Assembly (NCBI RefSeq): GCF_963662735.1 | Contig: NZ_OY759744.1 | Location: 1,158,153-1,222,152 of the forward strand | Reading direction: 5' to 3' | Length of the DNA: 64,000 nucleotides | Source of the DNA: an uncultured Methanoregula sp. | Lineage (GTDB): Archaea; Halobacteriota; Methanomicrobia; Methanomicrobiales; Methanospirillaceae | Part shown: positions 52,736 through 63,466 of the stretch, piece by piece | Numbering within the stretch: the first letter of the stretch is position 1 | How the letters are laid out: the number at the start of each line of letters is the position of its first letter | Notes under the pieces: model-generated | Told to the model about the DNA's origin: nothing | The model's input: the letters and a program-made list of their open reading frames with translations, nothing else | Database searches by the model: none | Translations under genes and position numbers: made by a program

Positions 52736-53231
52736 CTTAGTATCTTAGTTGTGCGTTTTTGCAGAGTCTGTATATATGATCTAAAGAAAAATTAGAAACA
52801 GTCTCTAAATCAACAACCATTGTAGCGTATCCGGTTTAAATTCATACAAATGTATAGTCGTTGCAAAAATTATTTCATCAATAATTATAAATTAACCTAT
52901 TACTGCAATAATTATAGTCGTACTTACCCGGTAACAGAATGCGCGACATATATACGATCTTCAAAGAGTGTGTTGAGATATCACTCTCCGGAAAGACCCT
53001 TGGATTGCATGGATAAAATCAAAAATCTTGCCACGAATTTAGAATCAGGGCTCAAATTACGCCCGAATTGGCCGGTAAAATCAACCACAAAGGATATATT
53101 AGCTCTTTTACAAATACTCTTTCATATTCCGTCAAAACGGAGTATGGGGCTCGTAGAATCGTTATTCGGCATTTGTCGAAAGCGATTCGCGGCTTGAATT
53201 GTATGATGTAATCTTTGGAGGAATTGAAATA
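52736..53231 (+). promoter_or_regulatory. AT-rich upstream region of the S-layer gene
   Basis: Between thyA and the S-layer gene I see no gene. The stretch is very AT-rich and contains direct repeats: CAATAATTATA at 52879-52889 and 52906-52916, and TATAGTCGT at 52853-52861 and 52913-52921. GGATATATTAGC near 53092 is a TATA candidate, giving a leader of about 115 bases with a stem ATTCCGT-CAAA-ACGGAGT. GGAGG near 53217 is the ribosome-binding site. This fits strong, perhaps regulated, expression. Confidence 0.5.
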
Positions 53232-56012
53232 ATGACTAAGCGATTTACTATCGCACTCGTTGCACTCGCACTTTTTGTGCTCGTTGCAGTAATGCCGGCA
53301 TCGGCCGCTTACTACAACACTTCACCTGTTATCAACCAGGGTGCAACAGTGTTTATTGGTGAGCAGGGGTTAAATCTGACCACTGCCATTCACTATGCAG
53401 AAGGAACACCTGTTACTAATGCCCCCCTTAACACCTCGATCGGCTGGTGGGCATCGGCAGCAACGATTACCAGCTCAGCACCGACCAAGTCCATCGATCT
53501 CGCATCACGCTACACGTCCCTGACCGTAGCACCGTCAGATTTCGTTGGATATGCCGGAAACTGGTATCTCCTTAACGGATCGGCAGTAATTATTGCCCCC
53601 GGCAAGACTGCCCCTCTGGCTGTAATTGTCGCCGCAGATCCAACGCTTGACGTTAAGATCTGGGACTTCAACCAGGCAACCGACATGACTGGGAAATCTG
53701 TCCCGCAGGGCGAGTACCTTGGTTTCCGCATTGAGACCAACATGTACCCAGCACTGGACAACCGCTACCGTTCAACCGTTTATGGCAACAGAAACGCTCA
53801 GACGGAAGGTACTGTAGCCGGCCAGGTCACTACCAGCGATGGTTTCATCGATATCAAGGTAAAGGATGAGTCCGGAACGACCTACACCGCTCTCTATAAC
53901 GATGCAAGCTCAACCGCTACTGACATCACCCGTCAGAACGTTTCGTTCCAGCCCTTCACCTGGGGTGACGGCACTGCCCTCCCCTGGATGCTGAACCAGA
54001 ACTGGTCAACCGGTAAGCTTGTAAACGGCCAGTATGCATACCCGGTCGGAACCTACACTGTCACTGTTGAGTCCAAGCTCAACAACATGAAGGACAACTA
54101 CAAGAATGCAGGTGCAGACTACACCGGCAAGACTGTTTCATCGACCCAGACCGTCCAGCTCGTTTCCGATACACTGAAGATCGAGGCAAACAAGGACTCA
54201 GTCGTCCGCAGCAAGCCGTTCTCGGTTACCATCACAGGCAAGCCCAACACCCAGTATCACGTATGGGTCAAGGGTACCAGCACCATGAAAGGTGGCTACG
54301 ATGACCAGCCTCCGTTCGTCAACCTGAACCAGGATGGCGTTAAGACTGATGCTACCCCCTATCCCGATGCAGGTCCAACTGCATACCAGATCAGCGGCAG
54401 CTCGGCTGGTGGGTACAACTACCAGAATGCAGGATCCACCACTACCCGTGTCTGGGACGATGTTGCCCACGGTACTACTACCGGCACCATTGCCACCCTC
54501 GGTAACGGTTCTTTCCTGAGCGCCAACGTCACAACTTCCGTATCCGGTACGAGAACTGTTGAGTTCCTTACCACCAACTGGACCAAGGCTCAGAAGTACA
54601 CGATCCATGTTGAGAAGTACGATGGAGTTCAGTACAAGAGCGATGAGGTAGATGTGAAGGTCGAGAAGGGCGCAGTCACCATCGTGGCAGCCGGCGACCA
54701 GAGCTATTACCTTGGCGAAGAGATCAAGCTCTCCGGTACGAACACCGAGACTTACAAGACCTACCTGTTCCTTGTCGGACCCAACCTGCCCACCAATGGT
54801 GCAAACATTGCAAAACAGGATCCGAGGAACTTCAAAGTAGTAAGCAACGACGTGACCACATTCCAGGCCGCTGATGTCCAGGGTGACAACACCTGGTCTT
54901 GGAAGTGGGGAACTGCGAGCTATGCACTCGATGCAGGCTCTTACACTATCTATGCAGTGAGCCAGCCCAAGTCGAAGGATGACCTGAGCCAGGCAGCCTA
55001 CGGCACGGTTTCCATTGTTATCAAGAAGCCGTTCGTATCAGCAACTGCATCCCAGTCCACCGTTGCACAGGGAGATCAGATCTTCATCACCGGTACCGCA
55101 GAAGGCCAGCCCTCAAAGGGTGTCCAGATCTGGGTGCTCGGTAAGAACTACCCGAAGTCCATTGACGATGTCAAGACTCAGTCCGTGAACTCTGATGGCT
55201 CGTTCAAGTACGAAATCACCCGTGACACCACCAAGGGTCTCTACGAGGGTCAGTACTTCGTCGTTGTTCAGCACCCGATGCAGAACGCCATCTTTGATGT
55301 CGTGGCACAGTCTGGAACCGGCAGCGATGCAGGCAAGACTGTAGTCATGAACATGCAGCTCGGCACTGCCGGCACGGGAACCAAGGTCTTCACGCTCCTC
55401 GGAGCAGGAAGCCTCCAGGGATCAGATGCAGCTGAAGCACTTGTCCAGGGAATCAACGACCCCAACGTCGATGATACCTACACCAAGCTCCAGTTCATCA
55501 TCGAGACCCCCAAGATCACCATTGCCCCGATCAGCGACAAGCACGTCGGTGACAAGTTCACCATCACTGCAACCACAAACCTGCAGGTAGATGACGACGT
55601 ACTCGTCCAGGTCGTTTCATCATCGTTCAAGCCGACTCAGAAGAGCCAGAGCGGCGAGTTCAGCGGCGCAGGCCAGACAATCAAGGTCAAGAAGGGCGAC
55701 AGCGGCCTTAACACGCTTTCCATCGATGTTGATGCATCGTCATTCAAACCCGATGAGTACCTTGTTACCATGTCCGGTGTGCTTGTAACTGCAAGTGACT
55801 CTGCACTGTTCAATGTTCTTGAAGGAACTGCCCCAACTGCAGTCCCGTCAGTAACTGCAACCGCAGTAGCACCCGTCACGACCGCAGCAACCATCGTCCC
55901 AGTCACCACAGTCCCGACCCCGGTCCCGACCACCAAGTCGCCCGGCTACGGTGCACTGATTGCGCTGATTGGCCTTGGTGCAGTTGCATTCATCGTCGTG
56001 CGCAGGCACTGA
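53232..56012 (+). CDS. S-layer glycoprotein
   Basis: Main cell-surface protein, 926 residues. A signal peptide ends near ASAA-YYN (about residue 26). The N-terminus (YYNTSPVINQGATVFIGEQGLNLT) matches the DUF3821/MEMAR-type S-layer family. Many N-x-S/T sequons occur. A Thr/Pro/Val-rich stalk precedes a PGF-CTERM-like tail: SPGYGALIALIGLGAVAFIV and RRH, with PGY in place of PGF. Archaeosortase would cut this tail. The GGAGG site is well placed before ATG 53232. Confidence 0.92.
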   Translation: MTKRFTIALVALALFVLVAVMPASAAYYNTSPVINQGATVFIGEQGLNLTTAIHYAEGTPVTNAPLNTSIGWWASAATITSSAPTKSIDLASRYTSLTVAPSDFVGYAGNWYLLNGSAVIIAPGKTAPLAVIVAADPTLDVKIWDFNQATDMTGKSVPQGEYLGFRIETNMYPALDNRYRSTVYGNRNAQTEGTVAGQVTTSDGFIDIKVKDESGTTYTALYNDASSTATDITRQNVSFQPFTWGDGTALPWMLNQNWSTGKLVNGQYAYPVGTYTVTVESKLNNMKDNYKNAGADYTGKTVSSTQTVQLVSDTLKIEANKDSVVRSKPFSVTITGKPNTQYHVWVKGTSTMKGGYDDQPPFVNLNQDGVKTDATPYPDAGPTAYQISGSSAGGYNYQNAGSTTTRVWDDVAHGTTTGTIATLGNGSFLSANVTTSVSGTRTVEFLTTNWTKAQKYTIHVEKYDGVQYKSDEVDVKVEKGAVTIVAAGDQSYYLGEEIKLSGTNTETYKTYLFLVGPNLPTNGANIAKQDPRNFKVVSNDVTTFQAADVQGDNTWSWKWGTASYALDAGSYTIYAVSQPKSKDDLSQAAYGTVSIVIKKPFVSATASQSTVAQGDQIFITGTAEGQPSKGVQIWVLGKNYPKSIDDVKTQSVNSDGSFKYEITRDTTKGLYEGQYFVVVQHPMQNAIFDVVAQSGTGSDAGKTVVMNMQLGTAGTGTKVFTLLGAGSLQGSDAAEALVQGINDPNVDDTYTKLQFIIETPKITIAPISDKHVGDKFTITATTNLQVDDDVLVQVVSSSFKPTQKSQSGEFSGAGQTIKVKKGDSGLNTLSIDVDASSFKPDEYLVTMSGVLVTASDSALFNVLEGTAPTAVPSVTATAVAPVTTAATIVPVTTVPTPVPTTKSPGYGALIALIGLGAVAFIVVRRH

Positions 56013-57704: not shown

Positions 57705-57744
57705 ACCGATGTCCTGATATATGAGCAGATGTGGATATTTTAGC

Positions 57745-59139
57745 ATGTATAGTCATAGACATCGTTTCCTTTTTGCCCTGCTGTGTCTCGTTCTTCTCTG
57801 CAGTGCGGCACAGGCAACGACGAACCTCATGATTACTGTGCAGGACAGTCTCGATAATTCCTCTATTTCGCACGCAACAGTATTCCTTAATGGCGCGGAT
57901 TACGCCAGGACCAATGCGAATGGCCAGGTGTACGTCACTCATCTCGGAGAGAATGATCAAAGAGTCCAGATCACCATGAACGGCTATGATGACTGGCAGC
58001 AGACTATCAGTAAAAATGCAACATCCGTTTTGGCATTATTGAACCGTAAAACACTCACCCTCAAGGTGAACCTTTACGATTCGGATACACTGAGTCCCGT
58101 CTCCGGTGCCAACGTCAACCTCACTCTTGGAAATGTGTCACTTGGAAGACAGACGGATACTACGGGTTCTGCCTCCTTTGGAGTCAATGCACTGAACCTT
58201 TATTCCATCAATATTGACGCCAATAATTACCAGCCTCGGAGCGGAACCATCGATGTCGGGTCGACAAACCGCGAAGTCCAGTACTGGCTTCTCCCCGGGA
58301 ACCGGTTTTCTTTCATTGTAAAAGATAAGGATACCCAGGAGGCAATTCAGGATGCTGAGGTTCGTATCGATAGTATTCTTGCAGGAAAAACGGATTCACG
58401 TGGGATCCTCAACACCCCGGTCACACGGGGCCGATCATATACCGTTCAGATAACAAAGCCGGGTTACCAGACCCTGACTGAAACCCGGCTCATCAGCGAG
58501 TCGGATGCTTTAACCACCATGACAATATCAAAGGCTCCTATCGGGGCATTTGTGTATGTTTACGATGAAAGCCGGACTCCGCTGAGTGGGGCAGATGTTT
58601 TTATCAATGGAAGCCAGTCAGGAACCACGAATGAGTTCGGGCGCAGTAATTTCCCCAGTCTTGTGACCGGTGCATATCTCCTTGAAGTTAAAAAAGCCGG
58701 CTATATCTCGGTCAGCAAGGCGATAACCGTTGTTGATCAGGGCAAGGACTATACCTTCACTCTTCCCTATGAAAGTGCTGCACTGTCGATATTTGTCCAT
58801 GATAAAGATCAAAAAGTAGTGCCAGGCGCGTCAATTCTCCTGAATGGGAATTCTGCCGGGACTACGGATGACAACGGCCAGTATACCACCCATATCAAAT
58901 TCAACTCAGTTTACAATATCACCGCCACCAAAGACGGATACCAGTCGGCATCGGTCTCAAAGCAGGTCGTGCAGGGGAATGCTACGGATTCAGTCACCCT
59001 TGTAATCGAGAAGAATCTTGATCTCGGTCTGGTCTCAATGGTAATTCTGGGTGCAGTCTGCGTCCTGATCCTGTTTATCGTAATACGGATGATCGCTCAT
59101 AAGAGACGACGGCACGTAACGAGAAGAAACGAGATCTAA
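57745..59139 (+). CDS. Membrane-anchored repeat protein with carboxypeptidase-regulatory-like domains
   Basis: A 464-residue protein with a signal peptide (ALLCLVLLCSAAQA), five to six tandem Ig-like/PEGA-like units of about 80 residues (typical pattern GA-x-V-x-x-N-G-x-x-x-G-x-T-[DN]-x-x-G), a membrane helix near the end (VSMVILGAVCVLILFIVIRM) and an Arg-rich tail. It should display the repeats outside the cell. It shares this style with the PEGA protein at 7934-9526. Start at 57745 preferred over 57721, because it begins the signal peptide. Confidence 0.78.
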   Translation: MYSHRHRFLFALLCLVLLCSAAQATTNLMITVQDSLDNSSISHATVFLNGADYARTNANGQVYVTHLGENDQRVQITMNGYDDWQQTISKNATSVLALLNRKTLTLKVNLYDSDTLSPVSGANVNLTLGNVSLGRQTDTTGSASFGVNALNLYSINIDANNYQPRSGTIDVGSTNREVQYWLLPGNRFSFIVKDKDTQEAIQDAEVRIDSILAGKTDSRGILNTPVTRGRSYTVQITKPGYQTLTETRLISESDALTTMTISKAPIGAFVYVYDESRTPLSGADVFINGSQSGTTNEFGRSNFPSLVTGAYLLEVKKAGYISVSKAITVVDQGKDYTFTLPYESAALSIFVHDKDQKVVPGASILLNGNSAGTTDDNGQYTTHIKFNSVYNITATKDGYQSASVSKQVVQGNATDSVTLVIEKNLDLGLVSMVILGAVCVLILFIVIRMIAHKRRRHVTRRNEI

Positions 59140-59517: not shown

Positions 59518-59955
59518 ATGATTCTCTCCGCATCAGAATATGCCCGCCGGATTGATCAGCAATCCCCTGGAGGAAAACTCATCATCAATCCCTACCATAC
59601 TGCCTGCCAGCAACCGGCATCCTATGATCTCAGGGCAGATTCTGACATGACGTTACCCCGGGGAACCTGTACCCTGGTGCCAACACTTGAGTGGATCGAA
59701 CTCCCGATGGATCTTGCCGGGACCCTCCGTTGCCGCTCATCGTTTGGCCGGCGCGGGGTTCTCCTGGGAGCCGGATTCGTTGACCCGGGTTTTCGTGGTC
59801 AGCTAACTCTCTGTCTGACCAATCTTGGAACTGATGATATTACCCTGCATAAGAATGACCGGGTGGTCCAGATGATCCTTCACGAAGTCAGGAACAGTGA
59901 CAAGGTTTACGAAGGCCGTTATCAGGACAGTCTGGGAGCAGTTGAGGCCAGATAA
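59518..59955 (+). CDS. dUTPase/dCTP deaminase-family protein, probably dUTPase only
   Basis: A 145-residue trimer-fold nucleotidohydrolase. The motifs RCRSSFGRRG (71-80) and AGFVDPGFRGQLTL follow the Dcd/Dut family. The dUTPase aspartate is kept (D89), but the deaminase glutamate, ten residues further on, is replaced by C99. In dCTP deaminases that glutamate is essential, so this protein probably hydrolyses dUTP (and perhaps dCTP) but does not deaminate. It lacks the usual 30-50 C-terminal residues. It is followed after two bases by nrpR. Confidence 0.8.
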   Translation: MILSASEYARRIDQQSPGGKLIINPYHTACQQPASYDLRADSDMTLPRGTCTLVPTLEWIELPMDLAGTLRCRSSFGRRGVLLGAGFVDPGFRGQLTLCLTNLGTDDITLHKNDRVVQMILHEVRNSDKVYEGRYQDSLGAVEAR

Positions 59956-59957
59956 CT

Positions 59958-60908
59958 ATGATCCGAACCGAACGAAAATATATTGAAATTTTACGTATTC
60001 TCAAGGAACATCAGGATCCGATGGGTGCCAAACGGTTATCGGAACTGATGGCGGAGCGGGGTTTCATCCTGAGCGACCGGGCAGTGCAGTACTACCTCAG
60101 TTATCTCGATACCATGGGGTTCACTGAAAAAGTCGGAAACCAGGGAAGAATTCTGACCCCTATCGGGATGGCGGAGACCGATAATGCACTTGTTGATGAC
60201 CGGATTGGATTTATCATATCGAAGCTTGAACGCCTCGCGTACCGGAGTACCTTCGATCCATCAACCAGTACCGGCGATGTTGCGTACAACCTGTCCATGG
60301 TACCGGCAGAACAGTTTGAACCGGCAAAAGCAGCATTCGATGATATTGTCAAAGCTGGCTGCGGATTTTTTAATTCTTACCGGATCATTGAACGCGATCC
60401 TCGGATTCCTCCGGGCTATATTGGATTTATCACGATCTGCAGTATCTCCATGGATGGGGTATTCCAGCGCAAGGGTATCCCTGTAAAAATGGCATTCGGC
60501 GGGAGACTTGAGATTGAGGACGGGACACCCCGGCGTTTTCGGGATCTGATCGGGTACCGGGGTACAACTATAGATCCTCTCGAGTTATTCATTTCATCCG
60601 GGCTTACCTCCATCACCAGCTACACCAAGTCAAAGACCGGTATTGCGCTGGCGAACGTAAGAGAAGTGCCCTGTTCGGCACGAGAACCGGTCGAAGAGAC
60701 CATACAGCTCATGAATGCCTGTGGTTTTGTGTTTCCTGTCACCCTGGGGAATCAGGTGTTCAATCTTCCTCATAATCCCTACCGCCTGTCAATTGTGGCA
60801 TTCAGCGGCCTGAACTATATCGGGAACGTTGTAGAAAAAGGCATAGAGATCAAAACGGAAATCGGTGCCGGGAATATCCAGTTCTCGAAAGTGATGGAGA
60901 CTAATTAA
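59958..60908 (+). CDS. nrpR: Nitrogen-regulatory repressor NrpR (one-domain type)
   Basis: Represses nitrogen-assimilation genes and is relieved by 2-oxoglutarate. The first 70 residues form a winged HTH (ILRILKEHQDPMGAKRLSELM, ILSDRAVQYYLSYLDTMGF), then one NRD (DUF128) domain to residue 316. Longer NrpR versions have two NRD domains or a separate partner subunit, which is not seen nearby. It is convergent with the FtsZ/CetZ-like gene, the stops abutting. Confidence 0.88.
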   Translation: MIRTERKYIEILRILKEHQDPMGAKRLSELMAERGFILSDRAVQYYLSYLDTMGFTEKVGNQGRILTPIGMAETDNALVDDRIGFIISKLERLAYRSTFDPSTSTGDVAYNLSMVPAEQFEPAKAAFDDIVKAGCGFFNSYRIIERDPRIPPGYIGFITICSISMDGVFQRKGIPVKMAFGGRLEIEDGTPRRFRDLIGYRGTTIDPLELFISSGLTSITSYTKSKTGIALANVREVPCSAREPVEETIQLMNACGFVFPVTLGNQVFNLPHNPYRLSIVAFSGLNYIGNVVEKGIEIKTEIGAGNIQFSKVMETN

Positions 60909-63248
60909 CTATATCCAGGAGATATCATCCTTCTTTTTTATTGATTTTTCCCGCGTTTTCCGCGATTCTTCACCTTCCCGTGCCTGTTCTTCGGGATCAT
61001 TTTTTGAATCGGGGTCGGTGGCATTTTGAGTTTTTCTTCCCAGATGCAGGTTGGCCTTGAGAAGTGCGGAGTCCCGGGGCAGGGGAACGAATCCTTTCTG
61101 AACGGTTTTTCCCTCGAATATCTGGTCTCTTGCCCTGAATGAAGGCTCTTTGATTTCTATTGCCTGCCCTTCAGGTTTGGTTTCAGTATCGAATTCTTCC
61201 GGTATTACTTCTTCCAGGAACGACTCATCCGCGGGGATATACTTCTCCTGTTTAGGGACAGGAGATGTTTCCGGAAGCGGGGGAGCGGGGGGCACTGTCT
61301 TTTTTCTTGAGATGATAACCGTCCTTCTTTCAGCAGGCCTTCCCTGTCCGGGGACATCAACCGGGCCGCCCGGTTCGTTTTTCCCTCTCTCCGGACGTTC
61401 GGGTGGTGCCACCTCTCGCGGTTTAATGACGGTTCGTGGTGGCTGTTGGGGAAATGCCGGTTCATGGCCACTCTTTATGACGCGATCCGGAGTTGCGATG
61501 ATCCGCTGCTGTTGCAGCTCGCGCTCGATTCTTTGCCGGGGTGTTTCCTTTGGGGGTATTGGCGTGCTCATTGACGATCTTAGAGATGGCCTGCCCGTAT
61601 CGATTGGTTTTACCGGTTCCCGTTGTTCTGTGGGTGGTGAGGGCGGGTGCTGCCTTGGTTGAGGAGGCCGATCCGGAATTTTTTGCATTGGGGGGATCTG
61701 GTCCTGCTGGGTGACTTTCGGGCGTGTATGTACTGCCGGCGGAATGGATCTGCCCGGCGTTCCCCTGTCTCCCGTTGTACTCAGGGGTGGAGTAACCTGT
61801 CCTGCCGGTGCCTGCTTCACATTTGTATTGATATCCGGTCTTGCTACCGGTGGCATTCCGGCACCCGTATTCCGACCCGGCACCTGCGGCCATTCCGGAC
61901 GTGGTTCCCCTCTCCCCTCTCCGGATGGGGACTCCTCCCTATGTTTTACCGACTGACTTTCCCCTCTGCTCTTCTGCATATTCTGGGGCAGAACGATCAT
62001 TTCATCCGATATTTCCCCACGACGGCGGGGGGAGCGTATTGCAGCCCCTGCTTCTGCAGTCTCACTAATTGCTCCACGGATGGATGGGTGGCGGTAATAT
62101 TCCCGTATCTCCCGAAGTTCCTCAATACGGGGGATGTTCTCAAGACCCGAGAGCATGATAATGACTGCAATATTCTTTGTATTCATGACAGGATAATCCC
62201 CGGATCGGGTTTCAAGGCCGGCAATGCTCCGGTCGATCCATTTCCTCACCGTCATGAACCCTTTCATGGACAGTTCGTGCGTCGGGCCCGCCACAAGGAT
62301 GAGCGCTTTATGTGCACTTGTCATATCACAAGGCGTTGAAATCTCGTTGTAGATTGCCTGTTTGGCCAGATCGACAACCCTTGAGGCCTTCTTTTTATTC
62401 TCTTCATCAAAGATCCCTTTCGGCCGCAACTGGCCAAGAAAACCCAACGGGTTGTTAGTGGTATGTTCTACGGCATACCCGATCGTGATGAATCCCATGC
62501 CCTTCATGGTATTGAGGACTTCCCCGGAATCCAGTACAACCTCCGCAAGATCGATACCCCCGTCGGCCCTGAACTCTCCAGCCCTGAGAATAAGGCTGAT
62601 CCTGCGGACTATGGTGTCGTTCAGGAGACGATAGGTGACCATCTGCGGTGAAATCTCCTGTTCCTGTTTCCCGAAACCGAGTCTTTCTACGAACCCTTTC
62701 TCGCGGTTCAGTATCTTCTCTTTTAACGCCGCAGTCTTCTTGTACCACGTCTCGTTGTCAAAAAGAATCATGCCGTCAAGGAGTGGCGCGAGGATGTCAA
62801 TGTCATCTGCCGCCTTTGCGGACCGCTTTTCCCCCTCGGCAAGGCACGGGAGGGTGACAAGCCCGAAGATCGGTTCAACAATGGCAGACCTGAGTCCGGC
62901 AATGACATGCGGAGCAACATCCGTCAGGGATCCGCCAAGACCCAGGCAGATGACGATGGCATCGGTCTCGCCGGACTCAAAGTTCTGGATTTTAGCAATA
63001 ATCTCGCTGATATCGATTGCTGCTGTTGGTGCTGCAGATCTGTTGCGCTCATCGAAATGAGGATCGAGCGGGGGAAAAAATAATTTTGCAGAATCCGGGA
63101 GGGATTCAAGATTTTTGAGACATTCCTCCTCTACATCGACTGCCAGTCCCTGGACACAGGCGACTTTACTGCTCCGCCGGTCGGTTGCATAGAGCCGGTC
63201 CACAATTCTGGAACCTGCCCCCCCCAGTCCAATCGCCACTATTCGCAT
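60909..63248 (-). CDS. Divergent FtsZ/CetZ-family protein with long disordered tail
   Basis: A 779-residue protein. Residues 1-395 have the tubulin/FtsZ fold: start IGLGGAGSRIVDRL, the FtsZ-like block VTLPCLAEGEKRSAKAADDI near 131-150, and a T7-like loop GIDLAEVVLDSGEVLNTM near 231-248. The GGGTGTG box is altered to GLGGSLTDV (103-111). Residues 396-779 are Pro/Arg/Glu/Gln-rich, disordered, and end KKKDDISWI. It may form filaments or act as a scaffold. Start ATG 63248 preferred over GTG 63266. Confidence 0.82.
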   Translation of the reverse strand: MRIVAIGLGGAGSRIVDRLYATDRRSSKVACVQGLAVDVEEECLKNLESLPDSAKLFFPPLDPHFDERNRSAAPTAAIDISEIIAKIQNFESGETDAIVICLGLGGSLTDVAPHVIAGLRSAIVEPIFGLVTLPCLAEGEKRSAKAADDIDILAPLLDGMILFDNETWYKKTAALKEKILNREKGFVERLGFGKQEQEISPQMVTYRLLNDTIVRRISLILRAGEFRADGGIDLAEVVLDSGEVLNTMKGMGFITIGYAVEHTTNNPLGFLGQLRPKGIFDEENKKKASRVVDLAKQAIYNEISTPCDMTSAHKALILVAGPTHELSMKGFMTVRKWIDRSIAGLETRSGDYPVMNTKNIAVIIMLSGLENIPRIEELREIREYYRHPSIRGAISETAEAGAAIRSPRRRGEISDEMIVLPQNMQKSRGESQSVKHREESPSGEGRGEPRPEWPQVPGRNTGAGMPPVARPDINTNVKQAPAGQVTPPLSTTGDRGTPGRSIPPAVHTRPKVTQQDQIPPMQKIPDRPPQPRQHPPSPPTEQREPVKPIDTGRPSLRSSMSTPIPPKETPRQRIERELQQQRIIATPDRVIKSGHEPAFPQQPPRTVIKPREVAPPERPERGKNEPGGPVDVPGQGRPAERRTVIISRKKTVPPAPPLPETSPVPKQEKYIPADESFLEEVIPEEFDTETKPEGQAIEIKEPSFRARDQIFEGKTVQKGFVPLPRDSALLKANLHLGRKTQNATDPDSKNDPEEQAREGEESRKTREKSIKKKDDISWI

Positions 63249-63466
63249 ATGGTCAGCCTGTAACACCGATCGAGTCCGTAGTCAGATGTGAGGTACAATA
63301 ACACTGGAATAGAATTCCTTGTCGAAGTTCAATATCTTATAGGATCATTGTTCCCTCTTAAAAAAAATGTGTCCTTTGGAGCACTCATGATCCCATGCAA
63401 TGAATTGCCGGAAACCCCAAATGATGCTTTAAATAGTCCGATCCTCCTGCGTTTATCTCCGCTGGA

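Follow-up and report, generated by a model that had tools for sequence, protein, structure and literature searches.

The window analysed here is a stretch of 64,000 nucleotides from an uncultured Methanoregula sp. (Methanomicrobiales; contig NZ_OY759744.1, positions 1,158,153 to 1,222,152), and the positions below are those of the window. Near its end, the open reading frame (ORF) 60909..63248 on the minus strand is an intact gene, which runs from the ATG at 63248 to the stop codon at 60909 and encodes 779 residues. Starting instead from a GTG at 63266 would lengthen the protein by six residues, while the ATG at 63248 agrees with the N-terminus of CetZ proteins. From the ORF and profile searches, the whole gene is described as a second CetZ paralogue and putative pseudo-GTPase, made up of a CetZ core (residues 1–381; 62106..63248 on the minus strand, like all features of this gene), delimited on the predicted fold of residues 1–390, and a long tail. 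The ORF had been pointed out in an earlier note made from the sequence alone, which placed its product in the tubulin/FtsZ superfamily, and both the ORF and, by profiles and fold, the superfamily are borne out.

The core was assigned to CetZ because profile, sequence and fold matches all favour this family. Pfam CetZ_C (PF21011) matches residues 205–380 with an E value of 8.7e-44 (149.5 bits against a curated cut-off of 21.6), and Pfam Tubulin matches residues 2–170 above its curated cut-off (E=7.8e-10), while NCBIfam ftsZ (TIGR00065) stays well below its equivalog cut-off (37.3 against 295.2 bits). In a sequence search of the Protein Data Bank (PDB), the top match is Haloferax volcanii CetZ1 (E=3.3e-47), and CetZ1 and CetZ2 are the nearest solved relatives among the matches listed. 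An AlphaFold2 model of residues 1–390, built on an alignment of 61 orthologues, reached a predicted local distance difference test score (pLDDT) of 86 and a predicted template modelling score of 0.86. Foldseek with the core model returned 4b46 (CetZ1) as the top match (E=7.1e-31), and VIA-align gave Z of 39.5 to CetZ2 (4b45), 39.4 to CetZ1 (4b46) and 35.4 to M. thermophila CetZ (3zid), with TubZ, tubulin and FtsZ chains at about 29–32 among the matches listed. In a tree of 77 of the 102 aligned rows (25 were omitted for speed), the 33 orthologues form a single clade (99/93) among the CetZs, and both FtsZs of this genome lie across a branch with 100/100 support. Profile, fold and tree thus agree on a CetZ, and this identity is secure. 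The proposal that the protein differs from FtsZ, CetZ and FtsZl alike does not hold for CetZ, and keeps its force only for the failing T4 loop described below. A non-tubulin Rossmann family was rejected, as the PDB sequence and fold matches listed are all FtsZ, CetZ, TubZ or tubulins, and a phage origin was also rejected, with no PHROGs match at an E value of 0.01.

The genome (2.82 Mb, one contig) contains four tubulin-superfamily matches and two CetZ_C matches, and its other CetZ is a canonical protein of about 393 residues at C1:1377 kb. CetZ_C was found in 229 of 232 Methanomicrobiales genomes and in all 135 good-quality ones (at least 90% complete, at most 5% contaminated), with at least two matches in each except one (G074). 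A search with the core sequence matched 228 of 231 genomes; the best E value was below 1e-46 in each of the 135 good-quality genomes, and canonical copies, matched in pieces, scored about 1e-21 to 1e-36. The gene is a second CetZ paralogue found throughout Methanomicrobiales. The best 80 of 157 loci come mostly from Methanoregula, Methanoculleus, Methanofollis, Methanogenium and other Methanomicrobiales. As a side observation, six of the eight genomes of one genus (G012–G019) contain three or four CetZ_C matches, suggesting extra canonical copies.

The position of the gene could be fixed in 39 of 41 loci, spanning 28 genera, and three neighbours recur beside it. A mer-like gene of the luciferase fold, in divergent orientation, is present in 26 loci of 21 genera (in the window, the upstream frame 63601–63999 matches Pfam Bac_luciferase). 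An NrpR-like gene on the strand opposite to the CetZ gene (59958–60908 in the window) occurs in 26 loci of 18 of the 28 genera, and a dCTP-deaminase-like gene in 23 loci of 17 genera. These recurring neighbours support orthology and vertical descent.

The counts below are based on 83 distinct orthologues, a sample of those found, of which 81 have a complete end; they are not independent, since 30 of the 83 come from the genus of the window itself. Two fragments (L123 and L012), a cut copy of the window gene (L004), identical copies and the two damaged genes mentioned next were omitted from the site and tail counts. L027 and L016 were assigned by hand to the canonical group, L078 lacks an ATG close to the expected start, and L180 and the partial frame of L185 were excluded from the loop-signature counts. 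The damaged genes are an orthologue with an in-frame stop in a draft genome (L052 in G186) and one split in two pieces (L120/L124 in G015), and each may be an assembly error or a pseudogene. Another locus (L266; DQIQ01000096.1) carries a 72%-identical orthologue on a contig titled Thermoplasmata archaeon, where the label or the binning is probably wrong.

In the nucleotide pocket, some loops are retained and others are lost. The T1 loop IGLGGAGSR (residues 6–14; 63207..63233) and the T5 region TLPCLAEGEKR with Glu138 (residues 132–142; 62823..62855), which had been described as an N-terminal loop and an FtsZ-like block, are both present, and Asn165 is retained in the T6 region FDNETW (62745..62762). 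The T4 loop (62913..62942) is degenerate, reading GLGGSLTDVA where canonical proteins read GLGGGTGSGG, and is one residue shorter. The earlier note had seen GGSLTDV in place of the tubulin signature GGGTGTG, and this is correct: GGGTG[ST]G is found in none of the 83 orthologues, against 39 of 39 sampled canonical CetZ paralogues of Methanomicrobiales and 52 of 52 other sampled CetZs. A shifted alignment of the box was also considered, and neither the window protein nor any orthologue carries the signature anywhere else. Across all 83 orthologues T4 is one residue shorter and the T3 glycines are gone, while the T1 glycines (83 of 83), the T5 Glu (80 of 83) and the T6 Asn (83 of 83) are kept; the shortened T4 retains GG and frequently an Asp (60 of 83). 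In relatives, the T5 and T6 residues contact the ribose and the base. The altered box is more than a chance event, because all 83 orthologues share it and the locus has recurring neighbours. From the losses in the loops that hold the phosphates, we infer that the protein is a pseudo-GTPase, i.e., that it does not turn over guanosine triphosphate (GTP). As the T4 signature and the T3 glycines fail, the protein is classed as a pseudo-GTPase subfamily derived from CetZ, not with the canonical CetZs.

The T7 loop VLDSGEVLNT (residues 238–247; 62508..62537) is intact. Its D240 and E243 align with VVDSSEIINT of canonical CetZ, the Asp is kept in 83 of 83 orthologues, and the Glu in 81, the remaining two having Asp. 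By column entropy over 376 ten-residue windows of the 83 orthologues, T7 ranks first and is the most conserved part of the core, T4 ranks 151 and T3 ranks 313. A damaged T7, which had been read from GIDLAEV as the loss of an Asn and a catalytic Asp, was rejected, since that segment (residues 231–237) directly precedes the true loop and the reading was misplaced by about seven residues.

The nearest group in the tree, placed with weak support (86/69) and on long branches, is the second CetZ of Archaeoglobus-type genomes (families f9 and f28, which are probably Archaeoglobaceae, to judge from the published two-CetZ pattern). In these proteins the T4 signature is absent (0 of 10) and the T3 glycines are also gone; all 10 keep the T7 Asp and have a second Asp where the Glu would be (V[VI]DTSD). 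Unlike the Methanomicrobiales group, they have mostly lost the T5 Glu and the T6 Asn. They may represent a parallel or shared pseudo-GTPase lineage. These proteins (L187, L195, L197–L201 and L204–L206) are 301–339 residues long and tailless. In one genome (G375:C2:69064-71304; locus L202), a canonical and a degenerate CetZ gene are adjacent and co-oriented, which suggests a functional pair.

The tail (residues 390–779; 60912..62081) is rich in Pro, Arg, Glu and Gln, as had been proposed, and shows low conservation. Within the Methanoregula group, the most common residue at a position has an average share of 0.81 in the core against 0.37 in the tail, and among all orthologues the whole protein ranges from 358 to 1141 residues. 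An ungapped motif search in 30 tails discovered a 15-column motif with a consensus of approximately [KQ]-[RK]-[PA]-[KN]-[DE]-x-x-[FL]-x-G-x-x-[IV]-S, which occurs at 167 sites in 30 of 30 tails (1–11 per tail). About two thirds of the neighbouring sites (89 of 137) are 17–19 residues apart, indicating a tandem repeat of 18–19 residues. When the motif was trained without a given family and then scanned on that family, the six rounds gave 3, 30, 16, 50, 7 and 10 sites, against shuffled means of 0.1, 0.33, 0.17, 0.82, 0.14 and 0.14. With the window's own group held out, 3 sites in 3 tails were found (shuffled maximum 2), so the repeat is thin here and strong in relatives. The window protein has two copies by motif search (residues 704–718 and 722–736, 18 apart; 61041..61139). 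Another tail motif, DEMIVLP (61986..62006), was recognized from the alignment and motif counts, DEM[ILVM] being present in 36 of 60 long tails against a shuffled mean of 0.46, and the segment RQRIERELQQQR (61503..61538) is conserved among Methanoregula-group proteins.

A folded solenoid was rejected for the repeats: for the repeat region of one relative (L099), AlphaFold2 with a 10-row alignment predicted no secondary structure, at a mean pLDDT of 45.8. On this model of a relative, the tail is likely disordered. Thus the long disordered tail of the earlier note stands in its length, probable disorder and terminal motif, and the conserved repeats and motifs had been overlooked. A search of six genomes with the repeat array of the same relative matched only the orthologous gene in three and nothing in the other three; this search is insensitive, because the three unmatched genomes, including that of the window, have repeat-bearing orthologues.

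At its C-terminus the protein ends in KKKDDISWI, as had been noted, and the peptide DDISWI (60912..60929) was delimited by motif counts. Among complete orthologues with 500 residues or more, 45 of 60 have an end of the form [ILVFM]-x-[WF]-[ILVMA] followed by 0–2 residues (in short, Φ-x-[FW]-Φ). For comparison, the same pattern ends 22 of 22 FtsZ1, 24 of 29 FtsZ2 and 2 of 425 background proteins (other mechanically called ORFs from 40 loci). At least one protein with the motif exists in 19 of 22 long-tailed genera and in 2 of 14 others, and outside the genus of the window 23 of 30 proteins have it; on the tree, the trait requires five changes among 33 rows, 14 of which bear it. In the window protein, DISWI fits this pattern (drawn up post hoc) after a linker. 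The GID core motif of FtsZ tails is absent from the window protein, and GIDW occurs in 3 of 60 long-tailed orthologues. The terminal peptide is therefore best described as resembling the FtsZ1/FtsZ2 ends in the hydrophobic-aromatic frame and the preceding acidic residues, and not in the Asp of GID, a likeness seen at the level of sequence. The exact DNA pattern for D-D-x-x-W-[IVM]-stop was found in this gene only within the same genome, a search that barely addresses looser versions. The sections of PMC8178401 covered report archaeal SepF crystallised in complex with the C-terminal peptide of FtsZ, and a GID motif that is nearly invariant in archaeal FtsZ1/FtsZ2 tails. SepF is encoded in the genome studied here (L263:1384-1749), and the PDB sequence search aligned it with 3zie and 3zig.

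In filaments of FtsZ and tubulin, a subunit carries its GTP at one of its faces, where the site of hydrolysis is completed by the T7 loop of the adjoining subunit. Because the phosphate loops are lost and T7 is kept above all, the simplest account would be a T7 that acts on the GTP of a partner, and docking by the T7 face is suggested by this role of the loop in completing a neighbour's GTPase site. The partner would be the canonical CetZ, since it is the sole other CetZ in this genome. We tentatively favour, as a reading that may well prove wrong, a pseudo-GTPase CetZ that docks with its T7 face on GTP-loaded canonical CetZ and is tethered by its tail to a receptor of FtsZ tails such as SepF. 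Its own pocket, with the phosphate loops lost and the T5 and T6 residues kept, would present no GTP to a further subunit. Sitting on the GTP-bearing end of the canonical filament, the protein may act as a cap, or as a co-subunit that triggers GTP hydrolysis by its partner. The tail, predicted to be disordered, would be a flexible tether of variable length with repeated units of 18–19 residues, and the C-terminal Φ-x-W-[IV] peptide may bind a receptor for FtsZ C-terminal peptides, with SepF as the candidate, which would link CetZ filaments to the membrane or the division ring. A paralogue present across the order, whose phosphate pocket is ruined and whose most conserved element is the catalytic loop that works in trans, yields a sharp and testable prediction on the regulation of CetZ filaments; a conserved FtsZ-like tail peptide would connect CetZ physically with the division machinery, and the arrangement would resemble, in archaea, the way in which the subunits of tubulin polymers divide their labour.

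Several points weigh against this proposal. The partner, the capping, the hydrolysis in trans and the docking to SepF are all inferred, and the conservation of T7 could serve folding. The comparison sets of canonical proteins were selected by top CetZ_C score and are biased towards canonical copies, and six Methanosarcinales-type rows lack the strict T4 signature (SGGTGSS), yet the GTGS part is kept there and gone here. For the tail, the terminal motif occurs in just 2 of 21 shorter orthologues and is missing from 15 of 60 long ones, its pattern was defined when the sequences had already been viewed, and the residue before the aromatic one is mostly not the Asp of GID (S 22, T 6, F 5, D 4, others 8; n=45). 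In H. volcanii, CetZs were reported without a role in division, and SepF binds FtsZ2 and not FtsZ1 (PMC8187382, sections covered).

Other roles were weighed on the same evidence. The conserved T5 and T6 residues hint that some nucleotide is perhaps still bound, and one alternative is a slow or altered CetZ in which T1, T5, T6 and a rebuilt T4 still bind GTP, guanosine diphosphate or some other purine nucleotide, and whose polymerisation goes with slow turnover. It draws on the retained T1 glycines, T5 Glu and T6 Asn, on the GG and the common Asp of the shortened T4, and on the Methanosarcinales-type rows, which show that the strict signature can vary; the deletion in T4 of every orthologue and the lost T3 glycines speak against it, as does the fact that no FtsZ or tubulin is known to hydrolyse GTP actively when the TG[ST] part of T4 is missing, and we consider it unlikely. 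The protein could also form a nucleotide-independent homopolymer or scaffold, which assembles without GTP and recruits clients by its tail. The loss of the phosphate loops, the entire CetZ fold in the predicted model, the alignment of residues 260–285 with the long M-loop region of CetZ1 and the repeated units of the tail would agree with such a scaffold, whose probability we put as low as that of the altered nucleotide binder, since self-association should conserve the top face of T3 and T4 that contacts the T7 of the neighbour, where T3 belongs to the less conserved windows (rank 313 of 376), and since D240 and E243 would be left without a substrate. The two options of the earlier note, poor GTP turnover or a nucleotide-independent scaffold, may apply, but with T7 preserved the GTP of a partner is the likelier target.

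In a further alternative, the protein would be a monomeric adaptor or sequestering factor whose CetZ domain serves for binding alone, and the work would be done by the tail, e.g., by multivalent binding of clients or membrane. Tail repeats and linear motifs that recur across held-out families fit this; however, near-tailless orthologues (358–381 residues, such as L112–L117, L121 and L122) keep the T7 Asp like all others, so that the tail cannot be the common function, and the adaptor appears improbable. Docking on canonical CetZ through T7 can also be stated in a bolder form, a one-faced tubulin, in which a CetZ with T7 as its sole working face would be a built-in cap and hydrolysis trigger and its repeat-bearing arm with the FtsZ-like peptide would tie CetZ filaments to SepF and the division ring. 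We regard this form as rather unlikely; if true, the cytoskeletons for shape (CetZ) and for division (FtsZ) would be joined in archaea.

Other genes of the window lie on the plus strand. The gene at 53199–56012 encodes a DUF3821 protein of 937 residues with a PGF-CTERM-like C-terminus (below cut-off), likely of surface-layer type. The gene at 57721–59139 encodes repeated carboxypeptidase-regulatory/PEGA-like domains and a hydrophobic stretch near the C-terminus. The region 59518–60908 contains the dCTP deaminase/dUTPase-like gene, followed by the regulator with winged-helix and NRD1_2 domains (NrpR-like).

CetZ proteins as such are already known, and for the combination of T4 loss, kept T7, repeats and an FtsZ-like end no description was found in the open-access literature. 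In open-access full texts, judged by titles and the starts of abstracts, no CetZ without T4, with such repeats or with such a tail peptide was described. Brown and Duggin (2023; PMC9856176) reported two CetZs in each analysed Methanomicrobiales genome and suggested that they are functional pairs, and noted that what is known of CetZ by experiment comes from a few studies in Haloferax volcanii. Their main text does not contain the words lack, degenerate or inactive, and the loss of T4, the repeats and the C-terminal peptide are unmentioned in the sections covered. By elimination, our protein should belong to the non-Halobacteria-like CetZ group of that paper (Archaeoglobales, Methanomicrobiales and Methanosarcinales). 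Some archaeal FtsZ paralogues without key motifs were described by Makarova and Koonin (PMC2875224, sections covered). Their FtsZl1 and FtsZl2 likewise diverge within the FtsZ-tubulin superfamily, and one of the proteins described has long C-terminal extensions, but these families are tied to GGGTG(S/T)G, a loop that our protein lacks, and are set apart by description. With the SepF-binding peptide of archaeal FtsZ1/FtsZ2, as given in the sections of PMC8178401 covered, the protein shares a flexible linker and then, at the extreme C-terminus, acidic residues followed by Φ-x-[FW]-[ILV], and differs in having mostly W for F and mostly Ser or Thr for the Asp of GID. The closest likeness is to H. 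volcanii CetZ1 (4B46) and CetZ2 (4B45), with a root-mean-square deviation of 2.2 and 2.0 Å over 321 and 323 residues, a common CetZ_C domain and a T7 loop of the CetZ type; the identity in the structural alignments is 31% and 26%, and compared with both, the protein of the window has lost the T4 GGGTGSG and T3 and carries a repeat-bearing tail of 380 residues.

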